Assembly: GCF_000337495.1 (NCBI RefSeq) | Contig: NZ_AOIS01000045.1 | Coordinates: 65,164 to 129,163 of the forward strand | Direction: 5' to 3' | DNA from: Haloterrigena salina JCM 13891 | GTDB lineage: Archaea > Halobacteriota > Halobacteria > Halobacteriales > Natrialbaceae | Length of the DNA: 64,000 bases | Shown here: positions 54,795 through 58,646 of the stretch, one piece after another | Layout of the letters: each line of letters begins with the position of its first letter | Numbering within the stretch: position 1 is the stretch's first letter | Position numbers and translations under genes: made by a program | Notes under the pieces: model-generated | The model's database searches: none | What the model was told of the DNA's origin: nothing | The model's input: the letters and a program-made list of their open reading frames with translations, nothing else

Positions 54795-55124
54795 ATGCAG
54801 TTCTGCGACGATTGCGGCTCGATGATGAAAGCTCAGGGCGATCGCATGGTCTGTACGAACGACGACTGCGGCGCCGCGAGCGAACGCGACCGCGAGCAGG
54901 AGGACGCGTTCGTCACGACCGAGTCCCAGACCGACGACGACGTGATCGAGTCCGACGAGAACGCCAACTTCGAGGGGAAGCCGAAGGCGACGGACGTGAT
55001 CTGCGACGAGTGTGAGAATCAGGAGGCGTGGTACACCCTCAAACAGACCGCCTCGGCCGACGAACCGCCGACGCGCTTTTTCAAGTGTACCGAGTGCGGC
55101 CACCGCTGGCGCGGCTACAACTGA
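54795..55124 (+). CDS. tfs: Transcription factor S (TFIIS-like)
   Basis: Archaeal transcript-cleavage factor that reactivates backtracked RNA polymerase. The 109-residue protein has an N-terminal zinc ribbon (MQFCDDCGSMMKAQGDRMVC, then CGAASERD) and a C-terminal TFIIS ribbon (ICDECENQEAWYTLKQTASA, then FKCTECGHRWRGYN). The cleavage loop near the C-terminus carries DE in ADEPPTRFFKCTECG, as needed for activity. The gene's 3' end overlaps the convergent DUF5518 gene by ten bases. Haloarchaea may have more than one TFS paralogue. Confidence 0.94.
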   Translation: MQFCDDCGSMMKAQGDRMVCTNDDCGAASERDREQEDAFVTTESQTDDDVIESDENANFEGKPKATDVICDECENQEAWYTLKQTASADEPPTRFFKCTECGHRWRGYN

Positions 55125-55528
55125 GTCCGCGATCGGTTGGATTCGCTCTCGAGGACGGTCCCGATCACCGCGCCGACGATACTCAGGACGAGGGTGTACG
55201 CCGCGATTCCAAGCAGGAAGAGGACGATCACGGCCCCGAAGCCGCCGGGTCCCAGAATCCCGAGAAACCAGAGCGCGACCAGTCCGAACAGCAGTTTCGG
55301 GACGAGCATGACGAGCCCCGCAAGCGCGCCGACCCGCAGTCCCTCGTCGGTCCCGCCGCCCTCGAGGTAGCCGGCGACCGCTCCGCCGAGAACGGTCGAG
55401 CCCGGGAGGAACGACAGCACGATCCCGACGCCGCCGCCGAACATGGCGTTGACGATCCGGTTCGAATCCGAGCTCGCGTCCGAGTCCGTCCCGTAGGAGT
55501 CGATCGGCGGCGGCGTGTCGGAGTCCAT
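55115..55528 (-). CDS. DUF5518 membrane protein
   Basis: Protein of 137 residues with an acidic N-terminus and three to four Gly/Ala-rich membrane segments (VNAMFGGGVGIVLSFLPGST, YLEGGGTDEGLRVGALAGLV, LGGAVAGYLEGGG motif). The pattern FLPGSTVLGGAVAGYLEGG is typical of haloarchaeal DUF5518. Function unknown. It converges on TFS with a ten-base overlap of coding sequence, so both stop codons lie within the partner gene. ATG 55528 was chosen over a longer frame with an Arg-rich leader. Confidence 0.82.
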   Translation of the reverse strand: MDSDTPPPIDSYGTDSDASSDSNRIVNAMFGGGVGIVLSFLPGSTVLGGAVAGYLEGGGTDEGLRVGALAGLVMLVPKLLFGLVALWFLGILGPGGFGAVIVLFLLGIAAYTLVLSIVGAVIGTVLESESNRSRTQL

Positions 55529-55768: not shown

Positions 55769-56521
55769 ATGGATCGCAGACAGATCCTCAAGGCGGCCGG
55801 CGTAACGTCGACGATTCCCCTCGCGTCCGGGCTCGGCGCGGCGCGCAGTGGCGAGCACAAGCGGGGCAACGGTCGAGATCGCGGACAGGCGCGACGGGAG
55901 TGTGCCCAATCGCAGTGTATTCACCCGGTGCTCGGCTACTCGGGTCTCGAGGGCGAGGAACGGGTGCCGTCGCCGCTCCAGCCCGAGTACGAGGTCGATC
56001 TGATCACGCGACCGCCGGAGGAGGGAGGGGGACGGCCGCTACCGGAGTTCTTCTTCCAACCGACCGGCCTCGCCGTCGAGCCCGGCGACGTGGTCCGCTT
56101 CAACCTGGAGACGCCCGACCACACCGTCACCGCGTATCATCCGCAGCTCGGCCGGCAACGCCGCGTTCCCGAAGGGGTCCCGGCGTTCTCGTCACCGGTC
56201 CTGGGCACGGGGACGTTCTGGCTCTACCGCTTCGATAAGCCTGGCGTCTACGACGTCCTGTGTGCGCCCCACGAGATCTTCGGGATGGTCGCGCGGATCG
56301 TCGTCGGCGACCCGCCGGCCGAACCGGCGTTCGGTCCGTCGGGACCGGTCGAGATGAACGGCGAGGAAGTCGAGCTTCGACCGCCGGCGCTCACCGCGGG
56401 ACTGGTGTACGAGGATCCGCTATTGGAGCCGTCGACGATCGTGCAGCGAGGGAGCGTCAGTTGGGACGAGCTCGCAGCGGAGAGCAAAGAGGTATTGGTC
56501 GAGTTCCCCGAAGAAGAGTAG
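55769..56521 (+). CDS. Secreted blue-copper (cupredoxin/halocyanin-like) protein
   Basis: Protein of 250 residues. The N-terminal MDRRQILKAAGVTSTIPLAS is a Tat-like signal with an RR pair. The cupredoxin domain has a first ligand region EPGDVVRFNLETPDHTVTAY (His) and the C-terminal Cys-His-Met set in YDVLCAPHEIFGMVARIVVG, the type I copper pattern. It shuttles electrons outside the membrane. The ATG at 55769 follows an in-frame GTG at 55760. It lies beside a multi-[4Fe-4S] protein and a HiPIP-like protein, suggesting that they share redox partners. Confidence 0.87.
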   Translation: MDRRQILKAAGVTSTIPLASGLGAARSGEHKRGNGRDRGQARRECAQSQCIHPVLGYSGLEGEERVPSPLQPEYEVDLITRPPEEGGGRPLPEFFFQPTGLAVEPGDVVRFNLETPDHTVTAYHPQLGRQRRVPEGVPAFSSPVLGTGTFWLYRFDKPGVYDVLCAPHEIFGMVARIVVGDPPAEPAFGPSGPVEMNGEEVELRPPALTAGLVYEDPLLEPSTIVQRGSVSWDELAAESKEVLVEFPEEE

Positions 56522-56613
56522 TCGACTCGAGGCGCGATACCGGGCCGGTATCGCGCCGTCCCGCCACGGCTCGTCCCGTCTATTTCACCGCTCGAGCGCG
56601 CTTCGAGCGCCGG

Positions 56614-57951
56614 TCAGTCGGGCAGCTCGAGTCCGACGGTCCCCTGGTCGAGGACGTCCTTTCGGTTGTCCACGTGGCCGACCTCGTCGTAGTCGATCGG
56701 CCCGTCGACCTGGTGGGCATCGGCGCTCGGCTCGTCCCCGATATAGACGATGTTCGGTTCGGTCCCGATATCCTCGAGGAGCCGGAACGTCGACTCGGCG
56801 GTGCCGGCCTCGGCTCGAACGAGCGTTCGCGCCTCTTGTTCGGTCAGTCCGTCGTCGCCGTCCCCGGCCGGATCGGTCTCGCCGGTGAGGACGGCGATCG
56901 CTTCCTGCAACTCGTCCTCGGACGGGTTCCGCGCTCGCACGCGAGCCAGTTCGGGATCCTCGAGGTACCGTCGCGTGTCGCTTTCAGGGTCGTTCATGTC
57001 GCCGAACTGGATCGCCTCGGGCGGACAGGCGTCCTCGCAGGCGGTCCGACCGACGAACTCCTCGCCCTTGGTGCCGTCTTGGCGGGTCGCACAGAACGTA
57101 CACTTCTCCATGACGCCCCGCGGCGCGCGGCTCCCGACCGGGCGCCCGCGGGCGTCGTAGACGTGATCGTCCTCGAGTTCGTCCGCCGAGACGCCCGGAT
57201 CGTCCCACTGGAAGTAGTTGACGCCGTAGGGACAGGCGACCTGACAGTACCGACAACCGATGCAGACGTCGTAGTCGGTCAGTACGAGGCCGTCGCTGTC
57301 CCGCGTGTGCCGAGCGGTCGTCGGACAGACCTTCTCGCAGGGCGCGTCCGTGCAGTGTTGGCAGGGTCGAATGAGCCGGTTGTGGCCGTCGGACGCGCTG
57401 TCCTCGTAGTCGAGGACGTACATCCAGTTGGCCCCCCGCTCCCAGTTGTGTTCCTCGGCGCAGGCGACGACGCAGGAGAGACAGCCGTCGCACTGCTCGA
57501 GATCGAGCACCATCCCCCACTGCGTCCCCTCGTCGTCACCCTCGGGTGCCTCCGCCTCGGTCGCCGACGGCGCCGGATCGTCGTCCGCCGTCGCGGCCCA
57601 CGCACTGAGTCCGACGGCTCCCGCCCCGGCGCCGACCTTGCGCATCACGCTGCGACGCGATTCCTCGTCGACGCCGAACGGCGAATCCGTCCCCGCGTCG
57701 CGCCCGTCGTCCGGCCGCTCAAGCGGTCGGTCGTCCTCGCCGAACTCCGCGACCACGGCCTCGTGGTACCGGTCGTAGAACTCGGCTTCCGAGAGCTTTC
57801 CCGCCGTGACTCGCCGGGCGTCCCGCGCCATCTCGAGCCCGAGCTCCGCGTCGTGGTCGGCGTCCTCGAGCATCCGTTCGAGTTCCGTCCGTCGGTCACC
57901 CTCGGGCCATCGGCTCGGCCCGTCGTCGGTTGCGTTCTCGTTGTCACCCAT
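56614..57951 (-). CDS. Tat-type iron-sulfur protein (DmsB/NrfC-like, four [4Fe-4S] clusters)
   Basis: Protein of 445 residues. After a ~95-residue acidic helical N-terminal domain comes a Tat-like motif ESRRSVMRKVGAGAGAVGLS and then the ferredoxin part: EQCDGCLSCVVACAEEHNWE, IRPCQHCTDAPCEKVCPTTA, YDVCIGCRYCQVACPYGVNY and EKCTFCATRQDGTKGEEFVG with ACEDACPPEAIQFGD. Sixteen cluster Cys are in place, as in electron-transfer subunits of molybdopterin oxidoreductases. No molybdopterin or membrane-anchor subunit lies beside it. ATG 57951 (MGDNENATDD) is preferred; 57960 is possible. Confidence 0.9.
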   Translation of the reverse strand: MGDNENATDDGPSRWPEGDRRTELERMLEDADHDAELGLEMARDARRVTAGKLSEAEFYDRYHEAVVAEFGEDDRPLERPDDGRDAGTDSPFGVDEESRRSVMRKVGAGAGAVGLSAWAATADDDPAPSATEAEAPEGDDEGTQWGMVLDLEQCDGCLSCVVACAEEHNWERGANWMYVLDYEDSASDGHNRLIRPCQHCTDAPCEKVCPTTARHTRDSDGLVLTDYDVCIGCRYCQVACPYGVNYFQWDDPGVSADELEDDHVYDARGRPVGSRAPRGVMEKCTFCATRQDGTKGEEFVGRTACEDACPPEAIQFGDMNDPESDTRRYLEDPELARVRARNPSEDELQEAIAVLTGETDPAGDGDDGLTEQEARTLVRAEAGTAESTFRLLEDIGTEPNIVYIGDEPSADAHQVDGPIDYDEVGHVDNRKDVLDQGTVGLELPD

Positions 57952-58220
57952 CGTAGCCACCCACCGTTGTGTGGTTCCTGATCGCGTTTCGTGCTAGCTA
58001 ACACCACGAATACGGCTTGGGATGGAATAACGGACGCCCTTGTACTCGCCGGGGCGTCGAGACGGGGCGACGATTTGTTCGGGGAGGGGACGGTATCGCA
58101 CGGGTTTCGGGTCCGTCTCGAGCGCGGTGTCGGACTCGAAGGGTCGGAACCGCCCGGCGCGACGGAATGTCCGAATCGCCGTACACCGAACTTTTGACGT
58201 GGTAACACATAGCAAATAGT
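57952..58220. promoter_or_regulatory. Divergent promoter region of the iron-sulfur and HiPIP-like genes
   Basis: 269 bases without a supported gene. A TATA-like acttttga (~58189-58196) suits a leaderless HiPIP-like transcript starting at the ATG. A second AT-rich stretch upstream of 57951 on the minus strand is less clear. No perfect operator palindrome was found. Confidence 0.4.
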
Positions 58221-58646
58221 ATGGCAGACGGGGAATCAGGGGAGTCGCGGCGCCGGGTGCTTCGGGCCACGGGATGTGGATCGGCGATCGTGCTCGCCGG
58301 GTGCGTGTCCGTGGGCGAAGACACCAGTCAGGCGGGCGGCGAACCGGCGCGCGACCGACCGGCCGACTGGTGTTTCGACCGGTTGGACGATACCGTCCCG
58401 GACGTGGAGGCGAACGCGGTGAGTATCGACGGGGTCGAGCGGAAGCCGGAGGGCGAGTTAGCATCGAAGGAGGAAGCCAGCTACCAGTGCGGGCCCGCGG
58501 ACGGGGACCACTGTGGCACCTGTACGTACTACATCGACGACCGTGACGGCGACGCAGTCGGGGCGTGTACCGAAGTTGCAGGCGAGGTCCGGTCGGCGGA
58601 CTGGTGTGCGCTCTGGGCGCCGCGGGAGGAGCTCCAGGACGAGTAA
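58221..58646 (+). CDS. HiPIP-like high-potential iron-sulfur lipoprotein
   Basis: Protein of 141 residues. The N-terminus SRRRVLRATGCGSAIVLAGC is a Tat signal ending in a lipobox Cys, so the protein should be anchored by lipid outside the cell. The last ~50 residues give the HiPIP cysteine spacing: CGTCTYYIDDRDGD, then GACTEVAGEV and ADWCALWAP, a CxxC...C...C set for one [4Fe-4S]. An additional upstream Cys (YQCGPADGDHCGTC) may belong to a disulfide. HiPIPs carry electrons to terminal acceptors in purple bacteria. Adjacent to a multi-cluster protein and a cupredoxin. Confidence 0.78.
   Translation: MADGESGESRRRVLRATGCGSAIVLAGCVSVGEDTSQAGGEPARDRPADWCFDRLDDTVPDVEANAVSIDGVERKPEGELASKEEASYQCGPADGDHCGTCTYYIDDRDGDAVGACTEVAGEVRSADWCALWAPREELQDE

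Follow-up and report, generated by a model that had tools for sequence, protein, structure and literature searches.

Which electron pathway do three exported redox carriers serve when they are encoded side by side in a stretch of DNA that holds no NrfD-type quinone subunit? The question is raised by a locus in a 64,000-nucleotide stretch (hereafter the window) of a haloarchaeal genome of 4.84 Mb (G000), at which a cupredoxin, a multi-[4Fe-4S] Tat protein (hereafter FeS) and a HiPIP-like lipoprotein are found together. The first-pass annotation read these as exported carriers, and open reading frames, Pfam matches, Tat signals and conserved cysteines bear this out, with all three frames at the coordinates that it gave.

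Sequence features of the three carriers

The cupredoxin (250 aa; 55769..56521, + strand) is a type I copper protein with a Tat signal, and matches Pfam Copper-bind (PF00127) at 29.6 bits (cut-off 21.2), while pseudoazurin and plastocyanin models match it below cut-off only. Its copper domain, at about 56048-56305 (+), carries the motif C-x2-H-x4-M (CAPHEIFGM), and the protein is 40-43% identical to cupredoxins within NrfD/oxidase clusters of relatives. A DUF5518 membrane protein (window 55115-55528, − strand) adjoins the cupredoxin gene and travels with it, not with FeS and HiPIP.

FeS (448 aa; 56614..57960, −) is an ActB/DsrO-like protein with four [4Fe-4S] motifs, matched by several Fer4 families in Pfam. 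Its 16 cluster-ligand cysteines (residues 157-312; 57025..57492, −) are all invariant in five relatives (alignment A2), which indicates four [4Fe-4S] clusters. The Tat signal is internal, at residues 101-120 (SRRSVMRKVGAGAGAVGLSA; 57601..57660, −); it matches TIGR01409 at 17.9 bits (cut-off 16.7), and its twin arginine is likewise invariant in the five relatives. As first described, a domain does precede this signal (residues 25-81; 57718..57888, −), yet it is not unusual: it is Ferredoxin_N (PF16947; 93.7 bits, cut-off 25; 7e-27), which occurs in 168 of 341 Halobacteria genomes. In other families, PF16947 also stands by itself, in frames of some 80-135 codons (e.g. G220:C8:1082476-1082664 and G165:C6:135725-135913), and is therefore a separable module; a search of open-licence papers found no literature on it. 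The extended-Tat-domain model, which is associated with ActB, is absent among the NCBIfam matches of the FeS N-terminal region.

The HiPIP (141 aa; 58221..58646, +) is a Tat-lipoprotein that matches PF01355 at 26.1 bits (cut-off 22). Within its twin-arginine and lipobox segment (residues 10-28, RRRVLRATGCGSAIVLAGC; 58248..58304, +), R10, R11, G27 and C28 are invariant in aligned relatives, as are the cluster cysteines C98, C101, C116 and C129 (58512..58607, +) in alignments A1 and A3, and two further cysteines are conserved besides the cluster set. AlphaFold models of HiPIP and FeS (pLDDT 40 and 37), built on shallow alignments, were too poor to use. The 260 bp between the divergent FeS and HiPIP genes (57961..58220) are probably a shared control region, judging from a divergent order and spacing that are kept in several genera.

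HiPIPs were initially considered uncommon in archaea, which overstates the case, as they occur in 74 of 341 haloarchaeal genomes and in 28 of 81 genera. Some take other forms. At L059 and L060 (G056, G100) and at L142-L152, separate matches within one frame suggest lipoproteins of 240-280 aa with two tandem HiPIP-type cysteine sets. At L127:9539-10345 (G006) and L128:9775-10614 (G009), a fusion of HiPIP with a NosL domain lies divergent from a nosD-nosL/ABC operon, and these fusions suggest that HiPIP acts in nitrous-oxide respiration too.

The FeS-HiPIP pair and the FeS-NrfD module

The FeS family is present in 97 of the 101 genomes of the window's family, and the HiPIP subfamily in 17 of the 101. 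Where the HiPIP subfamily occurs, FeS lies within 0.6 kb of it in 15 of 17 genomes (gaps of 191-569 bp), in a number of genera and with the two genes either divergent or co-directional, so that their closeness is not a matter of chance. Natronorubrum bangense also carries the pair. The cupredoxin adjoins it only in G000, G085, G049 and G028, four genomes of the window's genus; at the matching chromosomal position, G062, G046 and G024 have the cupredoxin but neither FeS nor HiPIP, and G043 has the pair but no cupredoxin. Because of these separate occurrences, we treat FeS and HiPIP as one unit and the cupredoxin as a neighbour of uncertain membership. A strict three-gene system is thus ruled out, and the co-occurrence proposed for the three genes holds for the pair but extends to the cupredoxin in a single genus only. 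In the FeS tree, HiPIP-linked genes are scattered over three or four positions: one in the window's clade, others in Halovivax and in Halostagnicola, and G078 on a long branch.

In these lineages the pair has informative neighbours. In three Halostagnicola-type genomes (e.g. G067), HiPIP, FeS, NrfD and a small protein, c20, form one operon. In Halovivax (e.g. G038), the pair lies between a ribosomal/SecY operon and a COX2 / COX1-COX3 heme-copper oxidase, and the HiPIP at the Halovivax-type locus of G070 is a fusion with a cupredoxin-like domain, whose Pfam copper match of 19-21 bits is just below cut-off. In the third genus, represented by G078, a stretch of about 9 kb holds COX1, COX2 (CuA), a lipoprotein cupredoxin, HiPIP, NBP35, NrfD and FeS. 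The gene cluster beside the Halovivax locus had also been considered as complex I, which HMMs ruled out by identifying the ribosomal/SecY operon. In G049, a CtaA/COX15-like heme A synthase (L098:422-1207) lies about 7.5 kb from the pair; it also occurs in genomes that lack the pair.

In most genomes, FeS belongs to an operon of FeS, NrfD, c20 (with two membrane helices predicted by inspection) and the Fe-S carrier NBP35; in the loci that were fetched, FeS and NrfD are seen side by side. In many Natrialbaceae, this module clusters with heme o synthase, copper nitrite reductase (NirK), SCO1, CuA oxidase subunits and a cupredoxin about 40% identical to that of the window, and in several lineages a halocyanin directly adjoins FeS. 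A cupredoxin, oxidase or NirK gene is nearby at 15 of 23 module loci (cupredoxin at 13, oxidase at 8, NirK at 9). The first-pass description of the locus as an orphan is therefore apt for the window but not for the system, as relatives place the same proteins beside NrfD and heme-copper oxidases. Its idea of an extracytoplasmic electron wire is both supported and extended by these neighbours.

The genome of the window has a complete FeS-NrfD-NBP35 module of its own on contig C51, with no oxidase or cupredoxin close by. It also has an orphan NrfD on contig C30 (L230, G000:C30:18000-31000), near a NirK-like gene, that belongs to a clade conserved in many Natrialbaceae and is a possible partner of orphan FeS proteins. 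A third FeS paralogue (L116, G000:C37:125500-145000, and relatives) is conserved in many genera, where it is flanked by leuA-like and PEP carboxylase genes and has no NrfD or HiPIP beside it.

In profile searches against the PDB, the FeS profile matches the ActB chain 6f0k_B best (2.4e-33), and also 6lod_B, 6btm_B and 8k9e_B; the NrfD profile matches ActC chains only (1.8e-28); and nearly all matches of the HiPIP profile are HiPIPs, the best being 3h31_A (E 1e-8), which we take to be the HiPIP of Rhodothermus marinus. The quinol site of ActC has been described as a His (HMGRP), an Asp (WDV) and a third charged residue, Asp253 (PMC5928083). The His and the Asp align with invariant residues of haloarchaeal NrfDs, but at Asp253 the alignment shows no conservation.

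A candidate menaquinol-oxidising pathway in genomes that lack bc1

Complex III is missing from about one in three haloarchaea, above all from Natrialbales, and their electron path has been called 'unresolved' (PMC8305020); a gap between menaquinone and one-electron carriers in bc1-less haloarchaea has likewise been stated (PMC3403918). The genome of the window is such a case: no bc1-type cytochrome b (PF13631) was found in it by a search in which the Haloferax volcanii control was positive, and it encodes seven COX1-type genes and three COX2 with a complete CuA motif. Among 341 Halobacteria genomes, with module NrfD counted at E < 1e-100, 31 have both bc1 and NrfD, 227 bc1 only, 81 NrfD only, and 2 (G105 and G171) neither. 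NrfD is thus present in 81 of 83 bc1-less genomes versus 31 of 258 with bc1 (Fisher 1e-49, genomes treated as independent). Outside the window's family, the corresponding counts are 22, 216, 13 and 2, or NrfD in 13 of 15 bc1-less genomes versus 22 of 238 with bc1 (6e-11, genomes again treated as independent). Bc1-less genomes with the module come from at least four families; the counts are not phylogenetically independent, and many of the bc1 losses are common by descent. One of these genomes is, we presume, that of Natronomonas pharaonis. That species has been reported to lack bc1 (PMC3403918).

Gene content, conservation, gene neighbourhoods, homology to ActB, ActC and HiPIP, and a distribution complementary to that of bc1 were all observed, and on balance they lead us to favour, with some reservation, a reading in which the locus encodes the extracytoplasmic half of a respiratory pathway for menaquinol oxidation, one that resembles alternative complex III (ACIII) but is heme-free, and whose core module replaces bc1. 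Menaquinol would be oxidised by the ActC-like NrfD in the membrane, and the electrons would then be taken by the four-cluster, ActB-like FeS, the two proteins presumably forming a physical complex that may couple electron flow to proton translocation or energy conservation. A lipid-anchored HiPIP, working with or alternating with a cupredoxin or halocyanin, would pass single electrons on to CuA-type cytochrome oxidases and copper nitrite reductase. The FeS of the window may be a second copy dedicated to HiPIP, with its NrfD partner supplied by either the C51 module or the C30 orphan. In about a quarter of the sampled Halobacteria, the core module would stand in for the absent cytochrome bc1.

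We give an even chance to the stronger statement that the FeS-NrfD module is the missing complex III of bc1-less haloarchaea, that is, a heme-free, essentially two-subunit menaquinol:halocyanin/HiPIP oxidoreductase of which the window has the HiPIP-dedicated version, with HiPIP-based respiration in archaea. Among open-licence papers, no earlier proposal of FeS-NrfD as a complex III equivalent was found. The proposal names a specific and widely conserved module for the complex III gap noted above (PMC8305020, PMC3403918), and because the module's homology, neighbours and complementary distribution all fit, the question becomes testable by gene deletion. If true, a very small heme-free complex III equivalent would exist, and HiPIP would enter archaeal respiration.

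Some observations weigh against the proposed pathway: no NrfD adjoins the FeS gene of the window, FeS paralogues lie far from both NrfD and HiPIP in several genera, the module of the window's genome has neither an oxidase nor a cupredoxin next to it, two bc1-less genomes have no NrfD, and ActC Asp253 is not kept. In addition, one paper infers direct use of quinol oxidases by some bc1-less natronoarchaea, which it describes as having neither complex III nor its alternative homologues (PMC6176080). Extended to all bc1-less haloarchaea, this would mean that no complex III is needed, that oxidases take menaquinol electrons directly, and that the module and HiPIP work in some other redox process, e.g. 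sulfur or nitrite metabolism, which would agree with the presence of NirK near several modules and near the orphan NrfD of the window's own genome. We think this unlikely: a complete CuA motif in three COX2 of that genome implies a one-electron donor, CuA oxidases and cupredoxins accompany the modules, and the near-perfect complementarity with bc1 would go unexplained. Rather unlikely, too, is that the FeS copy of the window has left the quinone pathway and acts with HiPIP and the cupredoxin as a local redox buffer, sensor or stress protein. While FeS paralogues often stand as orphans with no NrfD, and HiPIP has its two extra conserved cysteines, FeS retains all 16 ligand cysteines, and the HiPIP-linked FeS of Halostagnicola shares an operon with NrfD.

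Electrons could also run the other way, from an outside donor such as iron or a sulfur compound through HiPIP and FeS into the quinone pool via NrfD, as in Qrc. FeS matches QrcC and DsrO models, and HiPIP weakly matches the iron-oxidase Iro model, but the Iro match is far below cut-off, no donor-oxidising enzyme recurs near the relatives' loci in the fetched neighbourhoods, and the recurrent neighbours, oxidases and NirK, are electron consumers, so reverse flow seems quite improbable to us. Least credible is the first-pass suggestion that the carriers serve a distant molybdoenzyme, to which we attach very little probability. The genome does have molybdoenzyme operons, and FeS and molybdoenzyme beta subunits share a broad superfamily; these operons, however, have their own, distant FeS subunits (30-42% identical), and gene maps of the fetched neighbourhoods showed no recognised molybdoenzyme beside the window locus or its relatives.

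Likeness to known systems

The proposed menaquinol-oxidising module can be set beside several known systems. QrcCD and DsrOP share with it an FeS-NrfD pair in which FeS has a Tat signal and the four-cluster pattern, and DsrO and DsrP rank first among the NCBIfam models, at scores below the equivalog cut-offs; the haloarchaeal module differs in having no visible sulfate-reduction partners and in a distribution that tracks the absence of bc1. Bacterial HiPIPs (PF01355) have the same four cluster cysteines, Tat export and soluble-type domain, whereas the haloarchaeal HiPIP adds a lipobox anchor, two extra conserved cysteines, coupling to FeS-NrfD and, in one case, fusion to a cupredoxin. Tat-lipoprotein copper carriers of the halocyanin family (TIGR03102) stand beside the module in several lineages; the window cupredoxin, by contrast, scores 20.2 bits against a cut-off of 93.8 for that model and has no lipobox by inspection.

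A further close likeness is to ACIII (ActABCDEF of Rhodothermus marinus, 6f0k, and relatives), with FeS resembling the FeS part of ActB and NrfD resembling ActC. ACIII, too, is found mainly in organisms without bc1, has its genes near oxygen reductases, and has HiPIP as a known electron acceptor (PMC5928083). Nevertheless, the haloarchaeal module is not a member of ACIII: Pfam finds no molybdopterin (MopB) domain in the window FeS, gene maps of the module loci reveal no recognised c-type heme subunits (ActA, ActE) in the operon, and no ActF, the second NrfD-like subunit, was found there. For ActD, the two predicted helices of c20 make it a candidate only, and the orphan NrfD lies elsewhere in the genome. 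The haloarchaeal module is further set apart by being archaeal, by the NBP35 gene in its operon, and by its copper carriers besides HiPIP.
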